DNA from: Cynocephalus volans
Lineage: Eukaryota > Chordata > Mammalia > Dermoptera > Cynocephalidae
Assembly (NCBI RefSeq): GCF_027409185.1
Contig: NC_084460.1
Location: forward strand, 60,710,501 to 60,774,500
Reading direction: 5' to 3'
Length of the DNA: 64,000 nucleotides
Under the pieces are notes generated by a model. It saw only the letters and a program-made list of their open reading frames with translations, made no database searches and was not told where the DNA came from. Below, piece by piece: positions 1-64,000 of the stretch. Position 1 is the first letter of the stretch. The number at the start of each line of letters is the position of its first letter. The translations under genes and the position numbers were made by a program.

Positions 1-616
1 AGACCCAACCTCCTTCTCCTCACTTGGCTCATTTGGAAGTTGTGATAAGGCCAGAGGCCAGGATGATGCTTACCTCTGCTCCACTGATGAAAGTTGGGTC
101 TGTGGAGCAAACTACTAGTACAGTGAACAGAGCAAGTGAGAGGACAGACACATCAGCAGTGTGCTTTTGCCCCCGAGTGACACCAGCCTGGCTGCAAAGC
201 AGTCTGACCTGTGCATTAGTTCGTTCAGGCCCCAGGGACCTCTCCTGGTGGAACCTTGATGCCCTTTGAATGAAAGAAGTGGGTGGGCTTGAGCAGTGGT
301 TTTACGGCTGGGTTCTGAGGTCCTGGAGTTTGAGGTGGTGCCTCAGGGACCATGTGAGGGTAGGGACGAGGCAAAAACCTCTCCTATCCAGGCCTCTGAT
401 TGTCTCTGGGAAGGAAAAGCCCTGGCTGGTTGATTGCTAGTCAGCCGACGTTTTAAAATCTTTTATGTTAGCACAAAATATGTTGATCTGGATAAGTGCT
501 GGCAAGACAAGGTTTACTTGGCTTCTGTGAGGTGCTTGCCCTGTGAGGGTAGGCAGAGCTGGGCCCTCTGAGCCCAGCTGGGCCTGTGATAACCTTCCCT
601 TGTGGGATGTGTGCAG
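1..616 (+). other. MYO7B intron (left part)
   Basis: Intronic sequence before the first visible exon. No exon, RNA gene or clear repeat is recognised here. Confidence 0.6.
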
Positions 617-787
617 GGACTGCTGGTCACCCCAGCCGAAGAGCCGAAGAGCCAAAGCACCCTCCCCACCAAGAAGCGCAAGTCCATCTACGACACCATC
701 ACCGACACAGAGCTGGTAGAGAAGGTGTTCGGCTTCCTCCCTGCCATGATTATGGGGCAGGAGGGCCAGACCTCGCCGGGCTTCAAG
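617..787 (+). CDS. MYO7B: MYO7B window exon 1
   Basis: Fragment residues 1-57, from GLLVTP to SPGFK. The acceptor is tgtgcag and the donor gtaaga; both ends are phase 0. It encodes the basic linker ([10 protein letters not shown]) leading into the first MyTH4 region. Confidence 0.9.
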
Positions 788-3700
788 GTAAGACAAGCCT
801 GTTGTTCTCAGTCTAGCCCCAGGAGGGGATGGAAGCACCTGCCCAGTCCCTGACCTCAGCCAAACTCTAGGCTCCTTGAGAAGCTGAGACAGCTGGGGGA
901 GCCGTTGGAGCAGGTGGCCATGGTGTGCTGCAGCCCTGGGTGGTCATGCAAGAAGGGGAGCAAGCATGGGTTTCTGTGGTCAAGCCCTTTTGAGTCAAGC
1001 AGGTTTCTCAGCTGCAAGACTTCCCAGAGCCTTTACTATGTGAATGGTACTGGGCTCTCAGTCATGCAGCATCCCCTGCATATATTTGACTCCCCAGCCC
1101 CCAGAGCACCTTGGAGGCTGCTCTTCTGCAGAATGTGACTGGAGAAACTGAGGTCGAGGACAATGAATGCAGCAGAAGGGTGGGGTGTCTGAGGGTAGTG
1201 GTGCAAGGAAAGGGGAGTGGCCAGGAACAGCAGTGTCCCCAGGGTGGTCCTGCCATAGACCCCCACTGCACCCTGCTCTGGGCCCTGAGACTTGGTGACC
1301 TAGGTTCCCTGCCCCTCACCATGCTCATGGCCTCAGGCCCCCTCTGCCCCTTCACCCTGTGCAGTAGGGGTGGCTAGGACCACCTCCTCCAGAGGAACAC
1401 TGCCCCCTGCTCTGTGGGGAGTATGGCATGGGGGAAGTGTAGAGACCCCACAACTGCAGAACAGGGGACTCAAGGTCACGCTGCCAGATAGCCAGCACAT
1501 GGCAGCCCACCTGAGTGTGGGGGGAGGGAAAGGTGTCCAACACAGGGGGAGTGGACACATGCCACTGCACCTGGTGGACACCTGGGCAGACCCTTCTTGA
1601 GCTCTCTGGCCTTCAGAGAGGCTCACATCACTGGTGGCTAGCTGACAGGTTGGCTATTATCTGAAAGGGCTGCTGACCAATGTCCCTCCCTCTGCTGGCC
1701 CCCAGGATATGGAAGCAAAGACCCAGAAGCTGCCTGAGGTTGACCTGGACACAGTCCCCATGGTGGAAGAGCCAGAGGAGGACATGGATGACCTGGCTGA
1801 GTACACCTTCCCCAAGTTTGCTGCAACTTACTTCCAGAAATCGGCCAGCCACACACACATCCAGCGACCCCTGCGATACCCATTGCTCTACCACGAGGAC
1901 GATGCTGACTGCGCGGTACCCAGTGGTTCTCTGATTTCCAGGGGCTCAGGCCTCCCCCCCAGAGCCTGAAGTCTAAGCTGTGGTTCAGAGGGAAGAAGGA
2001 AGGGTTGGGGTCACTGTGGGTCCCAGTGTTGGGAGCTGGGTTCCAGCCAGGCCGTGCGTCTCATTTCTCCAGTCCTCCCTGGCCGTATGGAACATCATCC
2101 TGAGGTTCATGGGTGACCTTCCAGAGCCAGTGCTCTATGCCAAAAACAGCCTGCATGGCAGCTCAGTGATGCAGCAGCTCCGCGACATGCTGGGCAGGGA
2201 GAGCGGCGCCCAACGTCCACAGCACGGTGAGGCTGCACAGGTGAGTGGTGCATGGGCAGCAGGGAGGGGAGGCTGGATGGGAAGGGGAGACAAGACCTGA
2301 AGCCCTTTCATTGGCATTACCTGCTGAACCCAGCTCCCAAGCCTGGGCACCCGAGCATTTTCAGTCTTTTTTGTTGTTGTTGTTGTTAGCTGGCCATTAT
2401 GGGGATCCAAATCCTTGACCTTGGTGCACTCTAACCAACTGAGCTAACCGGCCAGCACATGTTTATTATCTCACACAGTCTCTGAGGATCAGGAGCAGCT
2501 TAGTTGATTAGTTCTGGTTTAGGGTTTCTCATGAGGTTGCTGTCAAGTGGACCCAGGGCTGGAGGGTCCACTCCCAGGATGGCTCACTCACAGGGCTGTT
2601 GGCAGGAGGCCTCAGTTCTTTGCTACATGGGCCTCTCCACAGAGCTGCCTGAGCATCTGCACAACATGGCTTCCCCCAGGATGAGTGACCCCAGAAGGAA
2701 GATGCCATGGCTCATCTTGGAAGTCACATATCACTGTGGGAGGTCACCTTGGATGCCGGCAGCCACTCAGGGAAGGGACTCTGGGAGGTGGCCCAGCCAC
2801 CCTGCACCTCTGGAGGGTGGAAGCAGGACTGGCTTCCCAGAGGTCAGATCTGAGGTTTTCCTTATGGCACGTTAAGTGCAGGAGGTCCCACCATGTGCCC
2901 CACTCACAGAGCAGCAGGCAGGCCCCACCACCCTCACGGAACTTGCCAGCTAATGTGTCTCAAGTTCAGTCCCTGTGTGGCAAGCTAGCGTTTCTCCAGC
3001 CAAAGCTGGTGCCTGGCCCTGGACACAGGCTGATCCCAATCCAAGCCCAGTCCTACACTTAGCTCTAATTTTGGCAGCAAATTCTTCCTATGACACCATC
3101 ATGACAAGGTGCAGCCTCTGCCTAGGTAGACCAGCAGACCCTAAAGGCTGGGGTCAAGCCCCTCCCTGCTCAGCCCCAGCCTGGCAGCCTGGGCTCCCCT
3201 GATCCTCTGCAGACCTCCACGTGCAGTGGGCAGAGCATCCTCTGATTCATCCACCAAATTTTTCCTGAGAATGACCATGGCTTGGGGCTGTCCTGTGCAC
3301 CCAGGCTCAGACCCAGCTCCGCCTCCGACGGCTTTCCTGAGGAGGGGCACAAGCTTTGGTAACTGGCTGGACAGATTTTGTCTCGTCTCTTGCCTTGCAT
3401 GAGCCTATTTCCTCATCTGGAAGTGAGGATGACGATGCGCACCTGCAAGAGTATAAAGCGAGGCCAAGACAAGGCACTGCACGTGGCTTTGTAAATTGGG
3501 CCAGGAAGTGGCTGGGTGAGAGGGACATTTGCCCACCCTAGGTGGCTGTAGGGTCAGCATCATCAAAGTACTGCCCAGGCTCACCTTCCCTCAGGAACTG
3601 TCTCCTTCCACAGAGGCCCAGCCACAGGGACAGAGTGACCAAGGAGATCTCCTCCATGAAGCTGAAGCGGTCCTCCTGGATCACAGGCCAGGTGAGCCCA

Positions 3701-9700: not shown

Positions 9701-12700
9701 ACAGCTTCCAGAAGGTGAGGAGCCTGGGAAGGACCACATTCCAGGGCCAGCCTGGTCTGCAGCCACCAGGAAACACTCACAGAGAAGAGACCCAGCCAGG
9801 AACAGAGTGATGTAGAATGCGCAGGATGCAGAGGACAGAGGGAAGGTGGTTGCAGGGGTGCAGGTGCAGCTGTCCCTCCCAAGCCCTACTCCCTTGGCTC
9901 CTCCCTTGGGCCCCGGGCCTGTCTGGCCTCACCACAGTAGCTCTGTTTAGGGGGCAGCAGAGCCTTGTGGTCAAGAACGTGGCCTTGGAACCCTAGTGCC
10001 TGAGTTCAAGTCCCACTTCTACCTCCTCCTGGCATTGTAACCTTGGAAAGTTCTGCCACCTCTCTGAGCCTCGGGCCCTCGTGTGGAATGTACAGAGTAC
10101 TGAGAGCCCTTTTGTAGGGGAGATGTGAGAACTGAGGGCGAGAATGTACCTGAAGCTCTGGGAGCAGCAGGTGCAAATCTCCCTGTGCTGTCAGGAGGAT
10201 GCAGTCCTGGAGACCTGCCTGGAATGAGCATTGGCAGGGAGCAGCAGGGGCAGGGGGCTTTGTGAGGCTGTGGTCCCCCAGAGAGAATGGGCTGGTAGGA
10301 TCCCTGCATGTGCCATGCTGGTGCCTTGCACAGCATCCTGCCCAGCTGAGTCCTTGCAGAAGCCCTGAAGGGTTGACCACTGGTCTCCCTTGACAAGTGA
10401 GGACAGAGCTAAGACAGGGGAGAGGCCTTGCCCACCTTCATTCTACTCAGAGCAGTAATGCTGGGGTTCCACCCAGGAACTCAGAGAGGAGTACCCCCTA
10501 TTCTCAGGCAGAGGGCCTGCAGGGCTCGGGCCAGGGCTGCCTGGAACTCCTGGCCTGCCACCAGGAGTGCATCCTGTGTGAGGCCCAGTCAGGGCATGTG
10601 CTGGTTCCCTTTGGAGATGGCAGGACAATGTGGCTGCTTGCACTCCCAGGTCCTGCCTGAGCTGCTGGTCAGCTGCACTGTGCTGGGGCAGGGGAGGTGT
10701 CATGGGAGAGGGTGGGCTCTCATCACCCCCCCATGTGCCCCTGGAATGTGCAGGAGGAAGAGCTGGTGGAGCTGCTGGCCCAGCACTGCTACGTGCAGCT
10801 GGGTGCCTCAGTAGGGAGTGAGGCTGTCCAGGGGCTGCTGCCCAGCTGTGTCCCCCAGAAGCTGTACAGGACCAAGCCCCCAGAGAGATGGGCTAGCCTC
10901 ATCACTGCTGCCCATGCCAAGGTCAGCCCCGAACTCTCCTCCATGGTGGTGGGGGCCCCAGGTATGCAGAGGGGGTGGGTTCCCTCCCCACAAGCCCTCA
11001 CCCACTAGGGGAACAGGAAGCTTAAACTTGACAGTTGAGCATAGTCCTGTCTCCTCAAGTTTAAACAGTCTCATTCAGTTCAACTCTCTATCACAGGCCT
11101 GCGTCACCTTCCCTCCTCCTCTCAAGTAGGTACTTTGGGTGGTGCCTGTGCTGGTCTGTGCTGCAGCGTCTGGCCGGACCGTGACCCCTTGGTGTGAAGG
11201 AGTTCACAGCTGCTGACCGTTGACCATGCCATTGCCCCAGCATCAGTCCTGCCCCCAGGGGCACACTGTTCCCCAATAGGCACGTGGGAAGCCCTGGATC
11301 AGAGTGTATGGACAGTCTAAACGTCTGACACATATCGTGTATCATCAGCTGTGGTGCATCGATTTACATTCCCAGAGCTGGTATTTGAATGTTACCCAGC
11401 CACTTTGTAAAGCAGGAACAAGAGAAATAACGTTTTATCCAACAGTGAAGAGAAAGTTCAGTTGGGTATTACAGCCAGTTATGGACACAGGGACACAGGG
11501 ACACAGCGCAGTGGGGACGGGAGAGGAGAGGCTAAAGCTGGGGAGGAGTAGAGAAAGGGGAGGAAGGAAACTTGAAGACAAGGAACTAGAGGGCACGGCT
11601 GAGATGGAGGTGCCTGAGAGAGGCCCCAAATACGCAGGAGAAGGACTGCAGAGAAGAGAGAGGTGCTGAGCACAGAGACACGCAGCGAGACCAGACCCAC
11701 GGGGCTGCGGGGGCAGGAGCAGCCGTCTCGCCGGCCCGCAGACACCAGATGCCGGCTTTGCATGCCCAGACGCGCCAGCAGTGCCTCTGGCGTCCCACCG
11801 CTGATGGGGAAAGGTCTTCCTCCCTTCTCAAAACCGTGTCCCAAAGGGTCCTCCTCCTGGAGGGCACCGTAGGACTGTGTCAGCCCCCAGCATCCCCAGA
11901 GGATCCCTCGCTGGGCACTGACATCACTTTAGGTAGAGGCTTCATATTGGCGGGATGATCCACTGACTAATCACCCTGAGAGCTGGGTGAGGGGTCAGTA
12001 GGGGAGGAAGGGTGACGGAGGTGACACCTGGTGTCTGTCCCCCTGCCCCCACAGGCCCCATACACCCAGGCGCGAGTCCCGCCGCAGGCTGTGCGGGAGC
12101 AGGTGGTGGACGCTGCCCGCCTGCAGTGGCCGCTGCTCTTCTCCCGGCTCTTCCAAGTCACCACACTCTCCGGTAACAGCATCTGGCTGTGGGGGCAGGC
12201 GCAGGCTGGGTGTCCCTGGGCGGTGCAGCTTCACACTGCTGTCTCCTCTGGCCAGGCCCCCGCCTGCCCAAGGCGCACCTGATCTTAGCCATTAACTGGA
12301 AGGGGCTGTACTTCCTGAACCAGAAAGAGAAGATGCTGCTGGAACTCTCTTTCACAGAGATCATGGGTCTGGCCACCAACAGGTGGGGGCCCTGAGGGAG
12401 GATGTCCCCAAATCTCTCTCCTTACAACCTGAGTCCTTGGGATCGATGCATCTGTGGGCTCAGGGACAGACAGGGAGAAGGGGTGGCATGATGTACCATG
12501 GAGCCGGGCTGGGGTGGAGGGATAGCAGCCACCGGACTCAGGAGCCCCACCCTCTCTACCAGGCCATGCTGCCCCACTAAGTGCTCCATTTGTGCATCGG
12601 GCGTTGACCCGGGAGCTTCTCTTTGAAACCCAGACCCCGCTGGACAGGGAGCACTGCCTGCAGTCTCCGTGGCCTGCATCCATTTGCAGGCTCTTTCTCT

Positions 12701-15700
12701 TCCCATGGGCAAGAATCGGCCACACAGAGAGAACAGAATGTCTCGGGGGGAAGCCAAAGACAGGTCCTGGTGTGCCGGGGTTGCCTCTCAGGCCAGGGCA
12801 GACCCCAATACTTCCACTCCCGTGGCTCTCCAAGGCTCCCACCTACTGGGAACTCCTCCAGGCCATCATAATCATGACCGCGGGGCTGTGCCAGTACACA
12901 CTGGCCACCACTCAGCAAGGCTGACTCTGCTGGGCACTTTCCTGGATTCCATGAAGTGCTCACAGCATTCTGCATGCTGCAGATGAATAAAATGAGGCAC
13001 ACAGGCCTGTTTTGTCCCTGCACACCAGCCACTTTATCACTGCCCAGAGCTAACCCCACACTGGGTGCTGGCACCCCCACTGCCTCTGAGGCCCAAGGGG
13101 CCCCAAGCTCTGGCCGCCACTCACTCACCACCCACAGTGGAGCCCAAGATGTGGGCCATCCTGGGCTCAGACCCTGGCCCTGCCATGGCCCTGGACGAGC
13201 CACTCTGTTTCCTTCTCTGTGGCTCAGGAGAGTCCCCACTCTGAGGCTGCAGAGGGGCTGAAGTGGGGACAGGGCGGAGGAGGGCTGGGGTCACACTGCA
13301 CCCTCCATGCCCTCAGGGAGGCCCGGGGTGGGCACCGGCTGCTGCTGTCCTCGCTGCACGAAGAGTACGAGTTCGTGTCCCCCAGCGTCGTGGCCATTGC
13401 CGAGCTGGTGGCCCTGTTTCTGGAGGGTCTGAAGGAGAGGTCCGTGTTTGCCATGGCCCTGGAGGACAGGAAGGCCACAGGTACCCAGCCAGGAGCGGGG
13501 AGCCAGCGGGGGGTGGCTTGTGCATCCCCACATCACGGCAGCTATGCTGCACGGAGCAGTACTCAGGGACACCAGTAGAGGGAGAGAGGGAGCGTCACAA
13601 AGCTGGCAGGGGCGGCTTTGGGCAAGGCCGTGCTCCCTCAGGAAACTCTTCTACAAAATAAGGGGACTGAAGGACGTGGTCTCAAACCCTCAAGGCAAGC
13701 CTTGCGCAGGACTTCACTGCTGCAGAAGAACCTGGAAGGGCTGACACCCCCCAGCCCCCAGCCAGTGGAGTTTGAGCACCGTCCCCATAGCCACCCCATT
13801 ACCCCATTTTACAGACACGGAACCGGAGGCTCAGAGAGGAAATTAGCTCACCCAGGGTCACAGGTCACAGCACACAGAGGGCGGGAGCTAGTTCTCAGCC
13901 ACAGCCTCCCTGCAAGTCAGCATTCCAGCAGGGTTGAGCTGTGGGCTGTGGGGGTCATGACCAAGACCCAGGACCTCCACCTGGCACAGCTGATTGGGAA
14001 GACATGCCGGGCTGGGCGTTCATGGGCCATGCAGTGGTGTGGTTGGTGCAGGGGCTTCAGAAGCGGGGAGGGGAGGTTCCCTAAGATGCAGAGGAAGGGC
14101 CTGTGCATGGGGTCTCACGATGGTGAGAAACATCAGCCTGGGATGTGTTACCCTGTCGCCCATCAGTCCTCTAGCCACCCCAGCGTGGAGGGATAATATC
14201 TCCATTTTACCGATGGGAAAACGTGCTCGGAGAGGTCATGCAGTGCTCAGGCCAGGCTCTGAGGGCCCTGGCTCCCCGGGCTGGGGCCAAGGTCGGAGCT
14301 CTGGAGCCCCTGCCCACCTGGGCTGTGTGCCTATGCAGGTGCAGCACGTGGCAGCCCTCTGGGCCCCCGAGGTTCCTGTCCCACCACCACTCACTCTCCT
14401 AGTGGCCTTGCACCCACCATTCCGTGCCTCAGTTTCCTCATCTGTCAATGGAGACAGCCCAGGAAATGCCAGCACAACCTTTGGCCCTATAGAGCCCTCA
14501 GCAAATGACTTTTTTGTCCCTGTGTGTGTGACCTGGACTTGCAGATGATGCCACCCTCCTACCTTTCAAGAAGGGGGACTTGTTGATCCTGACGAAGAAG
14601 CAGGGGCTATTAGCCTCTGAGAACTGGGCGGAAGGCCAGAACGACAGGACAGGCAGGACAGGGCTGGTGCACACGGCCTGCCTCTACACCATCCCCGCAG
14701 TCATCAAGCCCTCGGCGCAGCTACTGGTAACTCGAACGCTCCCCTCTTCTCAGCCCAGGCACCCACAGGCACAAGGGAAGCAGCCCCAGGTCACCCAGCC
14801 TGGGCCCCTAGGCCAGGAGGGCCACCTGCGCATCGGGTCAGCTCTGCCAGGCCCCATTGTCCCTGTGGGGCGACTGTGCAGTGCCCAGCTTGGCACTTAG
14901 TAGGTGATCAATAAATGGGTATTTTCTTTCTCCCACCATGGGTGTGTCCTGAGAATAAACCCAACGTCACCATGGGCTGCCTCATTTAAACCTGACCCAG
15001 AGCTGGCCCCTGAGGTTCCCATCCCACCACCACCACTCACTCTCTGTGCCCACCACTCTGCCTTGGTTTCCTCATCTGTCAAAGGAGACAACCAGGAAAT
15101 GCCAGCACAGCCTTTGGATAGAGCATGGTGCTGAAAACACCAAGGGCCAGGGTTGAATCCCTGTACCAGACAGCATAAAAACAAACAAAGAAATAAATAA
15201 ACCCTGACCCAAGGGGCCTAAGTCTCCTTCCCCACGAGAAACACCCCCTCCTCCAATCCCCAAGAGCAGCTTCGCAGGGAGGCAGGGATGGCAGGCATTC
15301 AACACACACGCACTGAGTGCCGAGCGTGCCCTGTGCCTGCAACACAGAGGATACAACAGCAGCTCTACCTGCAGGGAGCGTGCAGGTATTTGGGTAAATA
15401 ATGACAGAGTGATGGTAAGTGTGCCAAGTGCCACCAAGAATAAGCACTGGTTGTCGTGAGGTCTTGTAATAGGGTGGGGCTCGCCCTGTGTGGGAAGGCA
15501 TCCCTGAGGGAGTGACGTTTGTGCTGGGCCTGAAGCTATTGGGGACCAGGCAGGGCTAGGCCGAGGGGTGCCCCTGAGGAGAGGCAGCCTGGAAGGTCTG
15601 AGAAGCCCAAGGTGACTGAGCCCCAGAACAGGTGGTCCTGGCTTCATAGACAGTGGTGCTAATCCTCCTGAGGGAAAGGCAACCGGCTCAGAGAGGTTTA

Positions 15701-18700
15701 GTCACCAGTTCTGGGTCACACAGCAGGTGTCCAGCCCTGTGGTCTGACCCCTCCCAAGTCACTGAGGCAACCAGGCCAGGAGGAGCAATGGGAAGGGCCT
15801 TTTGGGCGGTGCTCCTGGGTGCCTACAGGCCTGTGTCCGCTGCAGAGCTTGCTGGCCATGTCACCAGAGAAGCGGAAGCTGGCAGCCCAGGAGGGGCGGC
15901 CCACAGAGCCACTGCCTGAGGAGCAGCCCAAGGAGAAGCCGCACACCCTGGAGGAGTTCTCCTACAAGTTCTTCAGGTGCCCACCTCCTGCACCCCTGAG
16001 GGCTGCGGGGAGGCCAAAGGGGCAGATGCCGAGCCTGCTGGGCCTCCCCAGGGCAGGGGAAGCCAGGAGGGGCTTGTGGCAAGGAGGGGACCCCCTGACC
16101 CTTCCACAACCATCCTGGGAGGTCAAACAGAGGAGAAGCATGGAGCAGAGAAGACCACAAGGCAGTTCCTCATGCTGGCTTCTGCCCCTGACAGGGCCCC
16201 AGAGAAGGAGACAGTCAGCAGAGCCATGCTCTCCCTGGCTCGCACCCAGGGCCACCTGTGGGCCTACTCTGCTGAACCACTGCGGCAGCCGCTGCTCAAG
16301 CGCGTCCATGCCAACGCTGAGCTGCGGGACATCGCCTGCCAGATCTTCCTCGATATCCTTCCCCAGCCAGCCCACCCCTGCTGCATACCAGCCTCATGGG
16401 CACAGGCACCACAGTCCCCTCTCAGCCCCACAGCTGCCCCATGAGTGGGGCTGGGCCTTACCTCACTGAGCACAGGGCAGAACTGACACACAGCTTACTG
16501 CAGGGCTGGTCAGGGGTCAGTGTGGGGCTGGGGCCAGGGGTCAGTGTCTATCCCTGGTCAGGGATCAGCGTGGGGCCACCTCCAGCACTGTTCTCCTTGA
16601 CGGCTGCACCCATCCTCAGGTACATGGGCGACTACCCTTCTCGTCAGGCCTGGCCCACCCTGGAGCTCACCGACCAGATCTTCTCATTGGCCCTGCAGGA
16701 CTCAGCCCTGCAGGACGAGGTCTACTGCCAGATCCTGAAGCAGCTGACACACAACTCCAACAGGTGTGCCAGGGACAGCAGGGCGGAGGGCACTGGCCCC
16801 TCAGTCCCCGTCCCAACCTCCCAGGTTGGGTCCAATGCTCAGAGTGGAAGTGGCAGCTGGTGGCAGCTGAACACAAGGCCGGCACCTGCAGCAGCAGTGG
16901 GAAGCGCTGGGCCCCCGGCTACTCTGCTGACCTCCTGGGGGCAGTCAGAGCAGGGCGGAATGGTCCTGCCCTGGGACCTGCCCACCTCCACCCTCTTTGT
17001 GTGACCTGAGTGGGCCATGGCCTCTCTGAACCTCAGTGTCCTCCTCCACAAAATGGGTGCAGTGGTGCCCTCCTCTTCTCGAGGGTGGGAAAGCCCTGTG
17101 GCACCAGACAGCCGGGTGGTGGGCTGGCATGATGTGGCCTTGCTAGTGCCCACTGCACCCTCCCCTGGGTCCCCCAGACCCCAGGCTCAGGCAGGTCTCA
17201 TGTCCCTGCTCCCTGAGCTGCCTGGCTGACAGGAACCACCCCCCAGGTACAGCGAGGAGCGAGGCTGGCAACTGCTGTTTCTCTGCACGGGCCTCTTTCC
17301 TCCCGGCAAGGCGCTGCTGCCCCACGCCCAGAAGTTCATAGACACTCGGAGGAAAAAGCTGCTGGCCCCAGACTGCAGCCGCCGCATCCAGAGGGTCCTG
17401 AGGTGAGCCTTGGGCCAGCAGAGCCTGGGTGCTGAGAGGCCCAGCCCAGAGTGGCTGAGGTCAGAGGCCAGGCCCTCCCACCCCATGTGCCCTCTCCCTC
17501 ATCCCTGCCATGGTCAGGGAGTCCTTCCTTAGCTGTCTGTCTTCTCCTCCATGCCTCTTGCCTCCTCTGTGGCCGTGGGGAGGGTGTTCGACCATGAGTG
17601 GCCAGGATTTTCATGGCTGCCGTGGTGGGCACCCTCGTGGTGGGCACCCTCAGAGTGGGCACCCTCGGAGAGAAGCTGTTGGAGTCCCCAGCCCCGCCCC
17701 CCAGTGCCCCGCTGCCCCATGCCCTGCCCCCCAGTGCCTTGCCCAGGTGCCACTGGCCCCCTCCCCGTGTGTGTCCCAGCCTACCAGGGCCTGCTCAGGA
17801 CTGGGGTCATCTGGGAGGAGAGACCAGGCCTGCCTCTGCCATCACCTCCTCTGGGGCCATGTACTGAGCCCGCCAGGCAGGGTCAGCCCCCTGGGAAGTG
17901 CAAGGGTTGGAGCCCCAGCAGTAATCACTGGGGTTATTTTTTGTTTTGTCTCTGGCACGTAGTTTACGGCCCACGTGGAGGCTGGGGGAGTAGGGGCGGG
18001 GTGGCATCTGCAGCAAGTGCTGTCCTGTTCAGGGCGGGGCCCCGGAAGCAGCCCCCACACCAGGTGGAAGTGGAGGCCGCCAAGCAAAATGTGTCCCACA
18101 TCTGCCACAAGATCTACTTCCCCAATGACACCAACGAGGTGAGTCCCCAACCCTTGGCCCACAGCAAGTCTCAGGCCTCGGGAAACTGCAAGGCACACTC
18201 TCCATCAGCCCAACGAGCTCCTGGTCACCCAAGGGTTTCAAGGGGACATCTCACCTTCACCACTCTCCTACTTCCCCTGCCCCACCCCCCATCTCCCCCT
18301 GGTGCACAGGCCCCTCCCACCTTTGCCCTTGCTGCAGAGGTGGTGCTGCCCCCAAGGGGAACAGAGGGGTAGCAGGGAGGAGTGGGGGGAAGCGGCAGGT
18401 GCAGTTGGAAGTCAGGACTGTCCCAAGGTGCGGGTTGAGAATTCCAGACCAAGGACACAGGAGGAAGGCCAGAAGGGTGGGTAGAAGGTTGATTCCCAGG
18501 CTTGGGGGCCCCTAGGGGCTTCTGACCATCCTGTGGCATGGCGAGCAGCTGCCACCATTGGGTGTGCCTTGTGGACAGAGCCCGCCATGGCTGCTGGGGA
18601 GGGTGGAGGGGACCCAGCCATGAGGGTGAGGCCATCAGCAAGAGGCAGCAAAGGAGAGAGGGGCTGAGGAGGTTGAGGTGGTTGATGCCACCCTCACAGC

Positions 18701-21700
18701 CTCCCCAGTGCCGTGTAAGCCTTTATAACAGAAAGTCCCCACCATCTGGCTGCAGGGCACAAAGCAAGTTCGAAAGGCAGTGCCTCCTGGGTCCCAAGAC
18801 AGCGAATGCTGTGACTGAGCAGCATAAACTCAGGGCCAGTGTTCTGCAGGGGAGGCCTGCCCTGCTCAGGACAGAGCACAGCCCAGGCTTTATGAGGGAC
18901 CAAAAGCGCCAGGCAATGAAGGGCCATTCCAGGCTGTGCTTTGGGAATGTGTGGCCCCAGGCCAGGCTCTGGGCCTCACTGCCACCTCTCTGCCCAGATG
19001 CTGGAGGTGGGCGCCAATACGCGGGTGCGGGACATGTGTGACAGCATTGCCACCAGGCTGCAGCTGGCCTCCTGGGAGGGCTGCAGCCTCTTCATCAAGA
19101 TCACAGACAAGGTGCACCATCCTGACAGCAGGGACAGGGAGGATGGCAAGCGGGGTCCCCTGTGTGAGGTGCTCTCCTGACAACTGAACGGACTGCAGCC
19201 TGCCCAGCATGCCTGTGTGGGCTGGCTTGGGCTTGAGTCAGACAAAGGTCGCGGGGGTGGGTATCAGAGCCAGAGCCCTCGCCCCGCACACCCAGGGTGG
19301 CCCGCAGGCGGCTGCCTCCAGCCGACCCTGAGCAGGCCCTGAGTGAGCCCGCACCAGTGCGGCACCAGCCCGCCAGGCCATAGAAAGCCACTGGACCCAA
19401 GGACGCTCCCCTAGAAGCCGCTCCTCCTGCCTGCAGCCCTTACCTTTCCCACCCAGGTCATCAGCCAGAAGGAGGGAGACTTCTTCTTTGACTCCTTAAG
19501 GCAGGTGTCTGACTGGGTCAAGAAGAACAAGCCCCAGAAAGAAGGTGAGGGTCTCTGTGGAGCAGGGGGTGGGGGAAAGAGGGTGTGGCTGGGATAGAGG
19601 GGCAGGGGCAGGACCATCTGCCTCCCTGGGCAGGTCGCCTCCTGCATTGCGCCAGGCCCATTCATTCATTACCTTGTGTGTCCTGTATGACCCTGGGTAT
19701 ATCCCATGGTGAGGCCAGATGGTGAGGCCCTGCCCTGGGGACACTCCCAGCTTGGCAGGGGCAGGGCATGGGGACAGGCCCAGAACAGGCCCAGAACAGA
19801 TGGCTGTACTGCAAGGTGATAAAGGATGAACAGGAGCTGAGGGGATCTGACCCCCACAGGGAGGTCCAGAAACATTTCTGGAGAAGGTGGTCCCCACACT
19901 AGTCTTGGAGGATGAGGAAGAGTTGGGGCCGGTGAGGCAGAGGGGTGGAGACTTTCCAGGTGGAGGAGCAGGAGGGTGTGCTGCAGGCAGTGCCTTGGGC
20001 ATGGTGGGGGCTTGGCCCAGCGGAGCCTGCTGGGGAGGTTTGGTGCCCACTGCCGCCTCTCGCCCAGGGGGCCCCGTGATGCTCCCCTACCAGGTGTACT
20101 TCATGCGGAAGCTGTGGCTCAACGTGGTCCCAGGGAAGGATGCCAATGCAGACAGCATACTCCATTACCATCAGGTACCCAGACAGGCCCCCTCCTGGTG
20201 GGCATGGGTCTCCCCCTTGCCATGTCACAGCTGCCCTGAGACGTGGAGGAAGCAGCAGGCTGTGGCAGCCCACACCCAGCCCAGGCTCCAACCATGGGAT
20301 CCTATGTGGTGGGCAGGCTGCCAGGGGAGGGAGGGGACAAAGGGTCCTGCCGCCTATGGAGCACTGGCCCGTGCCCAACTACATGGGGGTAGAGTAGGCC
20401 ATTGCCTGCACAATAAGACATCAGGGAGCCCTGCCTGGATTGGGTTTCATTGCACAGGCCAGAGACTACCTGAGGGCCTCAGCTTCGGCCTTCTTAGTCT
20501 CTCCTGGATGAGGGTGGGCTAGCCCCTCAGGCCACAGCCACCTGAGCACGAACAATGAGGTGGGGTGGGTGGGCTGACAGCCTGAAGCCCAGCGTGTCCA
20601 CCACCCAGGAGCTACCCAAGTACCTGCGTGGATTCCACAAGTGCTCACGGGAGGATGCCATCCACCTGGCGGGCCTCATCTACAAGGCCCAGTTTGACAA
20701 TGACCGTTCCCAGCTGGCTAGTGTCCCCAAGATCTTGAGAGAGCTGGTGCCCAAGAACCTCACATGCCTGATGTCCTCAGAGGAATGGAAAAAGGTCCTC
20801 AACAGGGCTGGGGAGGGGGCCCTTGGGTCACTGCCCCTCCGAGGCCCCTCCAAGGGCCCCACCTGGGCACAGTGAGCCAGTTGCTGGGCATGGAGGGTGG
20901 GCTGGGTCTGTTCACACTATGCCTATCCCCATGCTGTCCCCAATGCTGCTAAGACTTTCTCCCCCCACCTCACTGGCCCTCTCCTTCCCCCAGAGCATCC
21001 TCTTGGCCTATGACAAGCATAGGGACAAGACGGTAGAGGAGGCCAAGGTGGCCTTCCTCAAGTGGATCTGCCGGTGGCCCACCTTCGGGTCTGCCTTCTT
21101 TGAGGTGAAGGTAGGCTTTGCCCAAGCGGGCCCCACTCAGCCCTGGCCCCAGCAGTCCTGAGCTTCTCCCCAAACATGCATCTCAGGGTGGGGCTGGCTG
21201 TCAGGTTTAGAAGGAGTGTGTGTTTGTGTACAGATGTGTACATGTGTGTACGTGCGTGTGTCTCAGGTGAGCTCCTAGACAGTGGCCACCTGGCGACCAC
21301 TGTGCCCCTCTCTCCCCAGCAAACCTCAGAGCCCTCCTATCCAGACATTGTCCTCATCGCCATCAACCGACATGGGGTTCTGCTCATCCACCCCAAGACC
21401 AAGGTAGTGGCAGGGCTGGGGGACTCACCAGGGTCCTGGGACCCTGTGCAAACAGGCCAGTGGTCACCTGCTCTGGTGTGTCATGTGCACCCTCCTGTCC
21501 CCTGACACAGACAGACACACACACACAACCCCTGGGACCCAAAGGCCCCTAGTCCTGCCCAGCTTCAGCTTGCCATGCCCACCTTGCCCCTCTGTCCTCA
21601 GGAGCTGCTCACCACCTACCCCTTCACCAGGATTTCCAGCTGGAGCAGTGGCAGCACCTACTTCCACATGGTGCTGGGCAGCCTGGGCCGGGGCAGCCGC

Positions 21701-33200: not shown

Positions 33201-36200
33201 CAGACACTGGTGGACTGAGCAAGCTCTGACTTCCCAGGACAGGTCCTCGCTGCCTTCCTGTGTGTTGGATGCTGGGGGCAGCCAGGGTCAGGGGACGGCC
33301 AGGGGGTGGGCAGTGGAAAGTGGTGACACACTGGTCACTGTAATTGTGAGAAGGATGGGGCAGGTGCGTCAGGGAGGGTCCTGGGACTCGGGGGTAGCAG
33401 GGTTCACTTGGCAAGGCTGAGACAGAAGAGGAGCTGGAGAGCTCCAAGCACCGGGCTCTCAGGAATAGATCCCACCCGTCAGGAGTGGGACTCGGGGGCC
33501 CCATGTGCCACCCCCTGTCATTCAGACAGCTCACCTTGGGGGCAGAACAGAAAACATGGGGCCCTTCCTCGGCCCTCCCACCACCCAGAGCCTCCTGCAG
33601 ATGGGCTCACATCCTGCTCCCCTCCCTGGTGCCGACTCCATCCTCCCACCTCTGAGGGATGCACGGAGGAACAGTGCAGGGACGAGCTCCAGATTTCTGG
33701 GTCACCTGGTGCAGGGCTCCTGCCCTCGCCTGCTCAGTAGGGTCACAGCTGCTCAGTGGAGAAGCTCCAAGCCCCAGTTTTGTTTTTGCCTTTTGCTGAA
33801 TGCTCACCCACCCCCAAATGGACACAGTGGGTCCCCTCAGTAGTCCCAGAAGGAGCGCTGGGCTTGGGACAGCTCCGTTCCTCTTGAGTCAGGGGTGGGG
33901 GCTTCTGAAGGCATCGGAGGTCTTACTTCGGACTTCTGGAGAGCGTGGAGCTTCACCATCCCAGGCTGTCCCTGACCTGTTTGCTCGTTCCCTCCAGGCA
34001 CTTCTGTAGAGCGTGGAGCTTCACTGTCCCAGGCTGTCCCTGACCTGTTTGCTCGTTCCCTCCAGGCACTTCTGGAGAGCGTGGAGCTTCACTGTCCCAG
34101 GCTGTCCCTGACCTGTTTGCTCGTTCCCTCCAGGCTCGTCCCCGGCTCTTCCTCCAGCCAAAGCATGAGCAGCCTGGATCTGGCCTCCCCAAGTCTGACC
34201 GCCAACTCCTCCCTGGCTGCCACAGAGCAATGTGGCCAGGAGACGCCGCTGGAGAACGTGCTGTTTGCCTCCTTCTACCTCCTGGATTTCATCCTGGCGT
34301 TTGTTGGCAACGCCCTGGCCCTGTGGCTCTTCATCCGGGACCACAAATCAGGCACCCCGGCCAACGTGTTCCTTCTGCACCTGGCTGTGGCCGACTTGTC
34401 CTGTGTGCTGGTCCTGCCCACCCGCCTCGTCTACCACTTCTCCGGGAACCACTGGCCATTCGGGGAAATCCCATGCCGACTCACCGGCTTCCTCTTCTAC
34501 CTCAACATGTACGCCAGCATCTACTTCCTCACCTGCATCAGCGCTGACCGCTTCCTGGCCATCGTGCACCCGGTCAGGTCCCTCAAGCTCCGTCGGCCCC
34601 TCTACGCTCACCTGGCCTGTGCCTTCCTGTGGGTGGTGGTGGCCGTGGCCATGGCCCCGCTGCTGGTGAGCCCGCAGACGGTGCAGACCAACCACACAGT
34701 CGTCTGCCTGCAGCTGTACCGGGAGAAGGCTTCCCACCACGCCCTCGTGTCCCTGGCTGTGGCCTTCACCTTCCCGTTTGTCACTACGGTCACCTGCTAC
34801 CTGCTGATCATCCGCAGCCTGCGGCAGGGCCCCCGCGTGGAGAAGCGTCTCAAGAACAAAGCCGTCCGCATGACCGCCATGGTGCTTGCCATCTTCCTGG
34901 TCTGCTTCGTGCCCTACCATGTCAACCGCTCGGTCTACGTGCTGCACTACCGTGGTGGCGGGACCTCCTGCGCCACGCAGCGTGTCCTGGCCCTGGGGAA
35001 CCGCATCACCTCCTGCCTCACCAGCCTCAACGGGGCCCTCGACCCAGTCATGTACTTCTTCGTGGCCGAGAAGTTCCGCCACGCCCTGTGCAACTTGCTC
35101 TGTGGCAGGAGGCTCACGGGCCCGCCCCCCAGCCTCGAAGGGAAAACCAACGAGAGCTCGCTGAGCGCCAGGTCAGAGCTGTGAGCGGCGGGAGCCGCCC
35201 CGGAGGGCCCAGACTGCCTCGAAAGGACGACTTGCCAGGGTGCCTGTCACCCAGACTGGACAAGGGAGGTTTGCCTTCCCCCAGCCTCCTGAGCAACAAC
35301 CTGAAATCGCAGTGGCCCTACCCCTCCCTCCAAGCTCTGACTCCCAGGTTGCCCAGCGCTGTGCTCAGTCTCCACCAATGTGCAAACCCTACAAAGGGAG
35401 ACCTAACAGCAGGGATCAAATGGCACCCTCTGCAGGCACCATGTGGGCCCTGCTTACCAAGGCTCCTAGATACGCAGTGACCTCACCCATGGTAAGGGGG
35501 AACAAGGAGGCCAGAGGAACAATTCCTGAACAATGAGGGTCTTTCTTTCCCCGGTAGACTCCCAGCCTCCTTCCCACTATGGGAAAGCACAGTGGCAAAC
35601 TCTGCAGAAAGACCCGGAAGGCAGGCTGCCAATGATCCAGAAGAGACACGCCTGAATCTTGGTGGACGGGTGGAGGGGGAGCTGTCTAAAGATTTCCTTT
35701 AAAGTGCAAGGTGCTTTGAGTTCCCTTTGTGGCACCTTTGCCAGAGAATCATTGATGAATTTAAGAGACGTGGACTATAAATTATAGCTGAAGGCTGTGA
35801 GTACATTACAGGCTGGTTGCACCAGCAGAACACATCGGCTCAGCTCTGGTCCCTCCTGCTGTAAACCCACACAGACCTGCGTTCTGTCTCAGACCTGCAT
35901 GTGGCCTGACAATCCCAAGGGCTTCTCAGCAGGTGCCCAGGCCCTCCCAAGCCATGGTCAAGCACCCGGTGTGGGTGGACAGCCATAGGAGCCAACTTCA
36001 GGCTGGAGCCAGGTGTGTGAACCTGTCTCTCACTAACCTAGAGCAGGCAGAGGTGTCCTGGGCCCCACTCCCTCCCGAGAGGCCTCCACCAGCCCTTCCA
36101 GCCCAGCTGTGAGCCGATTCTCTTGACAGTGTGAGTGTATCAGCCTAACACGCCCTTTTTTGTTATTGTTTGTACTGATCATAAGTATAACTGTAGCTTT

Positions 36201-48200: not shown

Positions 48201-51200
48201 ACTTGCAAATGCAGTCCAATTCCAAAGTTGCCCAACACTGATCAATTCAGCAAATTTTAAAGGTGGTCCGGGGGCTAAAGGGCATAGCGAAGCTGAGCCT
48301 GGAGGAGCCAAAAAGTACAAGGAACGCCTCCCACTCTATGAAGTGAATAGCTAAATGCTTAAGAAAACTTGCCAGAAAGTTTTGTTACAGCAGCTTCAAG
48401 TCAATGCCCTAGGGCCTAGGCCCCTCTTACCACCCCTCCCGTGTGGAAATCCTGAACACTAGAACCCAGAACTCTCATCCAGAGCCACAGTTTGATTTAA
48501 GGAGGGAACATTTATTTAGGGCTCCTAGGGCTACACAGAGACCTGGGAAGGAGGCTACAGCCACAAGTGTTTTATAGGACATCATTTGTAAATGAAGTTC
48601 AAGTACAAGGTTACTAAGTACTGATCAATTCAACAAATATTTACTGTAAAAGGAGACATCAGAGGATAGAAATTGAGAGAGGCTTAGAGTCTGATTGAGC
48701 CCAAATCCCAAATCTCTGCACAGCCTTGCCACCTATCCTGTTGCCACCCATTCCCCAGCCAGCACTCTGGCTCCAGGGGACACAGTTGCAAAAACACAGC
48801 AAGAGTGATGTCAGCAAAAATTGCGGAGTAAGAACCTCTGGAAGTTCATCCCTCCAAAAAGGCAATGAAAAAACTACCAAAAATTGTCAGAATCTACTTT
48901 TTCAGAACTCTACAAATTAACCAGAGGTTTGTAGTAAACCTGGGAGCATTTGGTCAAGAAAAACAGATGAATCTTGGTAAGAATAGTGAGATTTGTGGGG
49001 TTTTAACTTATCCTAGTCCCTTATCTCTGCTCCCTTACTCCATGGCTGCCTTGAAAAATAATAGCCTGTATTCACAGTAAGGAGGGAGCAGAAAAGGATA
49101 CTATGAACAATTGTATGCAGCAAATTAAATAACCTAGCTGAAATGGACAATTTTCTAGAAGGACACAAACTACCAAACTGACTCAAGAAGAAACAGAAAA
49201 TCCCAACAGACAAGTAACAAGAGACTGAGTCAGTAATCAAAAAACTTGCCACAAAGAAAAGGCCAGGACCAGATAGCTTCACTGGTGAATTCTACCAAAA
49301 GTTTAAGTAGAATTAACACCAATCTTCATAAAATCCTCCCCCACACCCAGCAAAAAAAAGACCAGGAGGGAGCACTTTCCAACTCATTCTATGAGGCCAG
49401 TATTACCTTGATACCAAAACCAGACACAAGCATCACAAGAAAACTACAGACCAATATCTCTTATGAATACAGATGCAAACGTCCTCAATATAATACTATA
49501 AACTAAATTTGGCAGTCTATAAAAAGTATTATACACCATGATCAAATGAGATTTATCCTAGGAATACAGGGTTGGTTTAACACCCAAAAATCAATGTTAA
49601 AGAAAGAATAAAGGGAAACACCACATGATCATTTCAATAGATGCAGAAAACACATCCGACAAAATCCAACACCCTTTTGTGATTAAAAAAACAACAAACT
49701 ACGAACAGAGGGGAATTTCTTCAGTCCAATAAATAGCATCCACAAAAACCCACAGCTAACATACTTAGTGGTAAAAAAAAAAAAAAAAAAAAAAAAAAGA
49801 ATGTTTTCCCCCTAAGTTCAGGAACAAGACAAAGAGGTCCAGTCTTGCCACTTCTTTCAACATTGCCTTGAGGGCCAGTCCATGGCTCACTTGGGAGAGT
49901 GTGGTGCTGATAACACCAAGGCCACGGGTTCAGATCCCTATATAGGGATGGCCGGTTTAGCTCACTTCAGAGAGCGTGGTGCTGACAACACCAAGTCAAG
50001 GGTTAAGATCCCCTTACTGGTTATCTTTTAAAAACAAAAAACAAACAAAAAGAACATTGCCTTGGAGGTTCTAGAGAGTACAATTAGACAAGAAAAGGAA
50101 ATAAAAGTCATTGAGATTGGAAAGGAAGAAGTAAAACTATTTCTACTTACATATCACATAACTCTTCCATATAGAAAACCCTAAAGTATTCCTCCCCACA
50201 AAAAAACCTATTACAGCTAGTAAATGAAGTCAGCAAGTCAGCAGGATATAAGATCAATATACAAAAATCACTAGCAACGAGCAATCTGAATATAAAATTA
50301 ATAAAACAATTCCATTTACAATAGCATCAAAAAATGTTAAACTTAGGAATAAGTTTAACAAAATAAGTACAAGACTTATTCACTGAAAACTACAAAACAT
50401 TGTTGAGAGAAATTAAAGAAGACCTAAATAAAGGGAAAGACATCCCATGTTCATGGATTAGAAAACTTAATACTGTTAAGATGGAAATGCTACCCCTCCC
50501 CATTAAGTTGACCTACAGATTTGATGCAATTCCTATCAAAATTCCAACTGCTGTTTTTGTTTTTGTTTTTGTTTTTTACAGAAATATGCAAGTTGATCCT
50601 AAAATTAATATGGAAATGCAAAGGACCCAGAAAACAAAACAACCTGAAAAAGAACAAAGTCCAAGGACTCAGGCTTCCCAATTTCAAAATTTACTACAGA
50701 GTTACAATAATCAAGACAGTGTGGCACTGGCATAGTGATAGACATAGACATCAATAGAATAGAATTGAGAGTCCAGAAATAATCTCATGCATCCATGGTC
50801 AAATGATTATCAACAAGGGTGCCGAGACCCTTTGGTGGGAGAGAACAGTCTTATCAACAAATGATGCTACGACGACTGGATAGCTACATGCAGAAGAATG
50901 ATTTTAAACCATTACTTCATATATAAAAATTGACTCACAATGGATCAAAAATCTAAATGTTAGAGCTAAAACTGAAAGCTAGAAGAAACCATAGGTGTAG
51001 ATCTTCATGACCTAGGATTAGGCAACAGTTTCCTAGATGTGACAGCAAAAACTCAAGCAACTGAAGAATAAGTAAATTGGACTTCATCAAAATTTAAAAT
51101 TTTGGGCCGAGCCCGTGGCGCACTCGGTAGAGTGCTGCGCTGGGAGCGCGGCGACGCTCCCGCCGCGGGTTCGGATCCTATATAAGAATGACCAGTGCAC

Positions 51201-62390: not shown

Positions 62391-62694
62391 ACTCTGGGTA
62401 AGTTTTATACTCATATGACAAGCTGCCTAAATGTAGAGTATGTATCATATTCCTGTTGCTCAAAGAATCTCAAATATCGTTTAACTCAACCCATCTATTC
62501 CTAAACTGGATTTGCATAAATAAGAAACAGTTTGCACTATGTGCTGGAAAAATCTTGACGGAAAGCATTCTTTTAAACACAGAATCCATTTGAAAAGCCA
62601 ATTCATGCTCAAACTTATTTTTTGTATTCCTTACTTATATAGCTGTACACTAACCTTAGATATGCCCCAGGACAGAGGGTCTCAGAAACCCTAA

Positions 62695-63095
62695 TTGCAG
62701 TGGATTGAATGGCTTCCCAAAGTCATTGAAGCTTAATCCCCACTGTGACTCTTGTGAGTTGGAAATCTTATTACGGTAATTGAAAGGTGGGGCCTTGAAG
62801 AGGTGATTAGATTGTGAGGACCATGCCCTAGGAAATTGGTTAATGGTGGTCATGGGTGTGGTGTTAAGGGCTTTAAAAGGAGAACACATGAGGAGCTATC
62901 TCTCTCTCTGCTTCTGCCTTCTTGCATTGTGATACCCTGTATTACTGAAGCCACCACCAGGGAAGACCCTCACCAAATGCATTCCCTGGACTTTGGACTT
63001 CCCAGCCTTTGAAACTGTAAGCAATAAAATTTGTTTTCTAATAAATTCCCCAGTTCCAGATATTTTTGTTATAAGCCACATAAACAGACTAACAC
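62695..63095 (+). mobile_element. MaLR-type solo LTR (MST/MLT1-like)
   Basis: It runs from tgcagtggattgaatggc through 'gaaaggtggggccttgaagaggtgattagattgtgagg' and 'cccagcctttgaaactgtaagcaataaaa' to 'cataaacagactaacaca'. This is the layout of ERVL-MaLR LTRs, including the AATAAA signal near 63024. No internal coding region is present. Confidence 0.8.
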
Positions 63096-63383
63096 ACCAA
63101 GGCACAGTAACTTGGACCAGCGCTATCATTGTTCCAGAGGATGTGCCTGTGCAAAGGTCTGACCAGCTACGAGAAGGCCCAGTGCTCCGACACAGAACAC
63201 AAAAAGCAGCTGCAATTCCACCTCACACGTCTATCAGTCAGGATCCAGCCCATGAGTGTGAGTACCAAGGATAAGGGCAAAGCAGAGAGCAACCACACAT
63301 CTTCTTCCCAGGGCCACCCAAAGTTGGCAATGTGAAGACACATGGAACCCAAGGATTCTGCTGGCACCTGGGAGAACAGTGTA

Positions 63384-63442
63384 GCATGGTGGATTGATGA
63401 GTATGGACTACTGAGTCAGCCTTCTTGGGTTCAAATATTATT
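63384..63442 (+). mobile_element. MIR 5' fragment cut by L1
   Basis: 'tagcatggtggattgatgagtatgg' then 'cttcttgggttcaaat' match the MIR head. The match stops where L1 sequence starts. Confidence 0.6.
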
Positions 63443-64000
63443 TAGATTTTCCTTAATTTCATTGAACAATGTTTTGTATTTTTCAGTGTACAAGTCTTGC
63501 ACACCTTTAGATAATTTATTCCTAAGTATTTTATTCTTTTTGATGTGATTGTAAATGGACTTGTTTTCTTCATTTCCCTTTCATACTTTTTTTTGCTAGT
63601 GTATAGAAACACAATTAAATTTTATATATTAATTTTGTATCCTACAATCCTGCTGAACTTGTTTATTAATTTTAATGGCTTCTTAAGGGCTTCCTTGGAC
63701 TATGCTATATACACAATCATGTCATCAGCAAATAGAGTTTTACTTCTTTCCTTCCAATCTTGATGCCTTTTATTTCTTTTTCTTGCCTATTTTCCCTGGC
63801 TAGAACCTCCAGGGCACTGTTGAATAGAAATGGAAAGAACAGACATCCTTGTCTTGTTCCTGATCTTAGGCTGAAAGTACACAGTCTTTCACCATTAAAT
63901 ACGATTTTAGCTGTGGGTTTTTCATAGATCCCCTTATCATGATGAGGAAGTCCTCTTCTATTGTTGGTAGAAGTTCTCTTCTAGTCTTGTTTTTGTTTTA
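63443..64000 (-). mobile_element. LINE-1 ORF2 region, antisense, runs off the window
   Basis: 'atcatgtcatcagcaaatagagttttacttctttccttccaatct' and 'agggcactgttgaatagaaatgg' are the reverse complement of the L1 reverse transcriptase region. The right end is outside the window. Confidence 0.9.

Follow-up and report, generated by a model that had tools for sequence, protein, structure and literature searches.

The window, by which we mean the whole stretch of 64,000 nucleotides of DNA analysed here, very probably contains a U12-type AT-AC intron at positions 16353..16609, within the second MyTH4-FERM repeat (MF2) of MYO7B, which encodes a motor of the brush border in gut and kidney. A U12 AT-AC intron in the MYO7B tail had been proposed in a sequence-only reading of the same DNA, and this part of the proposal is strongly supported by the sequence, the reading frame and homology. 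We infer that the intron would be removed by the minor spliceosome. The elements on which this reading is based are the following:

16353..16609, plus strand: predicted U12-type AT-AC intron of the MYO7B tail, 257 bases, phase 1
16353..16360, plus strand: 5' splice site ATATCCTT, 8 of 8 positions matching the U12 consensus RTATCCTT
16594..16601, plus strand: U12-type branch site TCCTTGAC, 7 of 8 positions matching TCCTTAAC
16608..16609, plus strand: terminal AC, the 3' end of the intron
16195..16352, plus strand: exon upstream of the intron, ending in ...CAGATCTTCCTCG, its last base being the first of an Ala codon; supported by frame and homology
16610..16763, plus strand: exon downstream of the intron, starting with CCATCCTCAGGTACATGGGCGAC (CC ATC CTC AGG TAC ATG GGC GAC...); supported by homology
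16442..16444, plus strand: in-frame TGA reached if the intron is retained

The letters and coordinates that had been given for the donor, the branch site and the AC are exact, base for base, and the TGA that had been placed at about 16441 was found at 16442-16444, one base off. The codon split by the intron is G|CC (Ala), in phase 1, and the closing letters at 16609 are ...GGCTGCAC. As had been claimed, the AC at 16608-16609 ends nine bases past the A at 16600, which is the presumed branch point; this is slightly below the optimum of 11-13 given in the part of a review available to us (PMC3584512), and counting conventions may differ between the two figures. A distinct polypyrimidine tract is not expected in U12-type introns; pyrimidines occupy 13 of the 20 positions before the 3' end, a value that does not set this intron apart from its GT-AG neighbours (10 to 17 of 20). 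Within the intron, at 16506-16576, a 23-base unit occurs three times, as CTGGTCAGGGGTCAGTGTGGGGC and variants of it (70% and 91% alike), at a spacing of 24 bases.

Our model of the MYO7B tail begins at 10754, ends with the stop at 22292, and divides this stretch into 18 exons separated by 17 introns; once joined, the exons give a frame of 794 codons in which the terminal stop is the only one. The exon anchors were chosen by hand. Frame and homology served to check the 13 exons that start with the one at 15846, and frame only the five preceding ones; upstream of 10754 only one exon of the first MyTH4-FERM repeat (MF1) is included, seen by motif. Two of these exons are referred to below or mark the start of the region of interest:

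15846..15976, plus strand: second exon upstream of the AT-AC intron, start of the MF2 region, followed by a GT-AG intron; supported by frame and homology
2073-2240: probable exon of the MF1 repeat of MYO7B, by motif and frame

The alignments place the modelled tail in MYO7B: for the last 540 residues of the spliced frame, the gap-free alignment to the solved myosin-VIIb chain 5xbf covers 514 residues (1086 bits) and that to myosin-VIIa 5mv9 covers 510 residues (703 bits), so that this MyTH4-FERM tail is closest to myosin-VIIb, and Pfam matches to MyTH4 and FERM_M were found in it. Across the junction, the sequence is VAILRYMGD in the three solved myosin-VIIb MF2 chains that were aligned and IAVLKYMGD in myosin-VIIa; therefore, the Ala codon produced by the AT-AC splice is the residue to be expected at this place. 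It was also observed that the donor of the exon at 20795, GTCCTCAA, agrees with the U2 consensus at none of the 4 positions +3 to +6, with frame and homology intact across it.

Other ways of joining the exons on either side of the AT-AC intron were compared. We considered every pair of cuts with the upstream one from 16230, the downstream one up to 16759 and a length of at least 60 bases, allowing GT-AG, GC-AG, AT-AC, AT-AG and GT-AC ends, and scored the products against the myosin-VIIb stretch. There were 1975 cut pairs with allowed ends, and 479 of them kept the frame and met no stop (275 GC-AG, 76 AT-AC, 72 AT-AG, 28 GT-AG and 28 GT-AC). The AT-AC pair 16352/16610 reached the top score, 461, followed by an AT-AG pair (443), another AT-AC pair (441) and a GC-AG pair (440). 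Among the 28 GT-AG pairs the highest score was 424, with 17 residues inserted. When any ends were allowed in a neighbourhood of 50 by 50 bases, 16352/16610 was again at the top; the seven further cuts listed, with scores of 455-456, differ from it solely in replacing the Ala by Pro or Asp, and AT-AC, GT-AG and GC-AG ends are absent from all seven. A possible second 3' end is the AG at 16618-16619, 19 bases past the branch A at 16600, which shifts the frame when used with the AT-AC donor. It has been reported, in the portion of the review that we could consult, that AT-AG ends are disfavoured in U12 introns (PMC3584512).

A rival reading is a U2-type GC-AG intron running from 16366 to 16619, which would yield the protein FLDILPQYMGD instead of FLAILRYMGD. 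This intron is in frame and free of stops, has the acceptor CCTCAG, and is the highest-scoring among the GT-AG and GC-AG pairs (440 vs 461 for the AT-AC pair). Even so, we consider it very unlikely: its cut drops the A and the R of FLAILRYMGD and adds one residue, whereas both dropped residues are present in the three aligned myosin-VIIb MF2 chains, the R being K in myosin-VIIa. GC introns need a strong donor, AG|GCAAGT, and the donor in question, CCA|GCCAGC, is far from it. Furthermore, a GC-AG reading leaves a complete U12 donor and branch site without explanation.

With the AT-AC junction preferred, its class has to be determined from the donor and the branch site. The U12 class is defined by these two elements and not by AT-AC ends (PMC3584512, in part), and its 5' consensus is RTATCCTT (PMC2846911, in part). 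The ends of U12-type introns may be AT-AC or GT-AG. In human, the AT-AC subtype makes up about 26% of them according to the text seen of PMC7367187. Of the 12 donors compared in the tail, that of the AT-AC intron is the only one to fit the U12 consensus throughout +3 to +8 (6 of 6), the others fitting at 0 to 4 of 6. The remaining 16 of the 17 modelled tail introns are GT-AG; they resemble the AT-AC intron in size range and in use of frame, but they have neither AT-AC ends nor a full U12 donor, and nothing within their last 45 bases matches the branch site at more than 6 of 8 positions. A U2-type AT-AC intron, removed by the major spliceosome, would have the same ends, and those ends by themselves do not fix the U12 class, as the available part of the same review states (PMC3584512). 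Such an intron is nevertheless highly improbable here, given that the donor agrees with U12 at every position between +3 and +8 and is followed by an almost perfect U12 branch site. The fit of the donor to the U2 consensus from +3 to +6 is low as well (1 of 4); however, this value is not telling alone, because a score of 0 or 1 was also obtained for 5 of the 11 GT donors in the comparison.

It is important to consider whether motifs of this kind could fall together by chance. Single motifs are unremarkable in 64 kb, since ATATCCTT alone occurred at least once in 47 of 100 shuffles of that length, and TCCTTRAY was found 4 times in the window, below the 7.4 expected. The ordered exact set, consisting of the donor, the branch site and an AC 8-20 bases past the branch A, occurs once in the window with 60-3000 bases allowed. 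When either strand of 200 dinucleotide shuffles was considered, with 60-1000 bases allowed, the exact set appeared in 3 of them, and a looser set (RTATCCTT, with an AC or AG end) appeared in 13 of 200. Chance is very unlikely because the sole set sits exactly on the junction that homology requires, which is an independent match. That an ordinary intron is masked by an error in the sequencing or the assembly, or by a local change without function, is an explanation to which we give almost no credence. It could draw on the fact that one genome only is at hand, but the 794-codon tail frame (stop included) is intact, two separate U12 motifs cannot arise from one wrong base, and a G in place of the A at the first base would still leave a U12 donor.

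A scan allowing one mismatch returned other U12-like pairs in the window, at 589-2429 (plus strand), 62474-63467 (plus strand) and 49101-48940 (minus strand), which were set aside, judged by exon overlap and stop positions alone. The MF1 exon 2073-2240 falls inside the first; the second has stops in all three frames on either side; and the third has one frame open before the donor and every frame stopped after the acceptor.

The MyTH4-FERM stretch of the MYO7B protein has weak matches to myosin-X chains, in agreement with Myo10 being a MyTH4-FERM myosin gene. In the part seen of PMC6558932, Myo10 is described as a minor-intron gene, with more retention and less functional mRNA in SMA mice; it resembles MYO7B as read here in that both are myosin genes containing a minor intron, although it is a different gene and the two are likened by description only. 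If the intron is spliced as read, MYO7B would join Myo10 as another MyTH4-FERM myosin gene that carries a minor intron, as far as the text seen of PMC6558932 goes, and the intron would be old if that of Myo10 lies at the same MyTH4 place. A closer likeness in letters comes from SMYD2, for which a phase-1 AT-AC intron with identical ATATCCTT and TCCTTGAC has been reported in human and dog (PMC7367187, in part). According to the same partial source, the SMYD2 intron shares the donor, the branch site, the AC end and phase 1 with that of MYO7B and differs in its host gene and position. Within MYO7B, the stretch of the MF1 MyTH4 repeat corresponding to the junction, in exon 2073-2240, is like that of solved myosin-VIIa 3pvl; the AT-AC intron would thus not be common to MF1 and MF2, because the matching MF1 place lies inside that exon. 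Searches for orthologue DNA gave 5 stretches matching the pattern in viral contigs and 30 in prokaryote genome contigs, with no relatives among either.

On the general understanding of minor splicing, ATATCCTT would be read by U11 and then by U6atac snRNA, and TCCTTGAC would be paired by U12 snRNA with the A at 16600 bulged; the cut after the AC at 16609 would then join G to CC and restore the Ala codon. Retention of the intron would bring the frame to the TGA 30 codons past the exon end, so that the message would lack most of MF2 and would probably be degraded. It has been reported, in the portion consulted of PMC5493754, that MF2 binds harmonin; consequently, loss of MF2 should uncouple the motor from the microvillus adaptor complex. 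If the intron is spliced as read, a correct MYO7B message requires the minor spliceosome, and sequence changes within 16353-16360 or 16594-16601 would be of consequence, even if they are missed by the standard GT-AG rules. The output of this brush-border myosin may, as suggested in the sequence-only reading, be tied to minor-spliceosome activity. The intron could also be one among many contributors to the gut effects of minor-splicing defects.

In the main texts of the open-licence literature searched, we found nothing linking MYO7B with U12, a minor intron or intron retention, nor MYO7A with AT-AC. Likewise, no study that mentions Myo7b along with either Rnpc3 or minor class splicing was among the matches listed, and the titles of the literature on MYO7B and the spliceosome point to none on MYO7B splicing. 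Besides Myo10 (PMC6558932), the passages on myosin consulted in other minor-intron papers include none on a myosin minor intron, and the word 'myosin' is absent from the main texts of PMC6717393, PMC7367187, PMC10639083, PMC2846911 and PMC6865273. Because IAOD, MIDB and U12DB annotate introns genome-wide, the human orthologue, if it is U12, is likely catalogued, and the MYO7B intron may already be listed. As a representative of an intron class that is already known, the MYO7B intron is convincing yet ordinary. A further-reaching proposal would hold that the intron is uncatalogued and that its slow removal brakes full-length MYO7B, with brush-border assembly in gut and kidney falling with minor-spliceosome activity in the manner of Myo10 in SMA mice; we regard this as improbable.

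Other features noted in the window are the following:

34081-35184: GPR17, open frame of 367 codons, 276 of 293 residues matching solved chain 7y89
49951-50022: Rfam tRNA match, 38.5 bits, not called by ARAGORN

MYO7B followed by GPR17 is an order that presumably fits human region 2q14.3. The solved myosin-VIIb and GPR17 chains, which we take to be human, are matched closely but not identically, at 88 of 103 residues for myosin-VIIb and at the 276 of 293 given above for GPR17; a human origin of the sequence is therefore not supported, and the source is probably a placental mammal other than human. None of three Alu patterns matched in the window. The element at 49951-50022 is probably a tRNA-derived SINE, core words like those of this repeat being found at 15128, 37093, 49906 and 49979, and similar copies are, we presume, present in colugos and bats.
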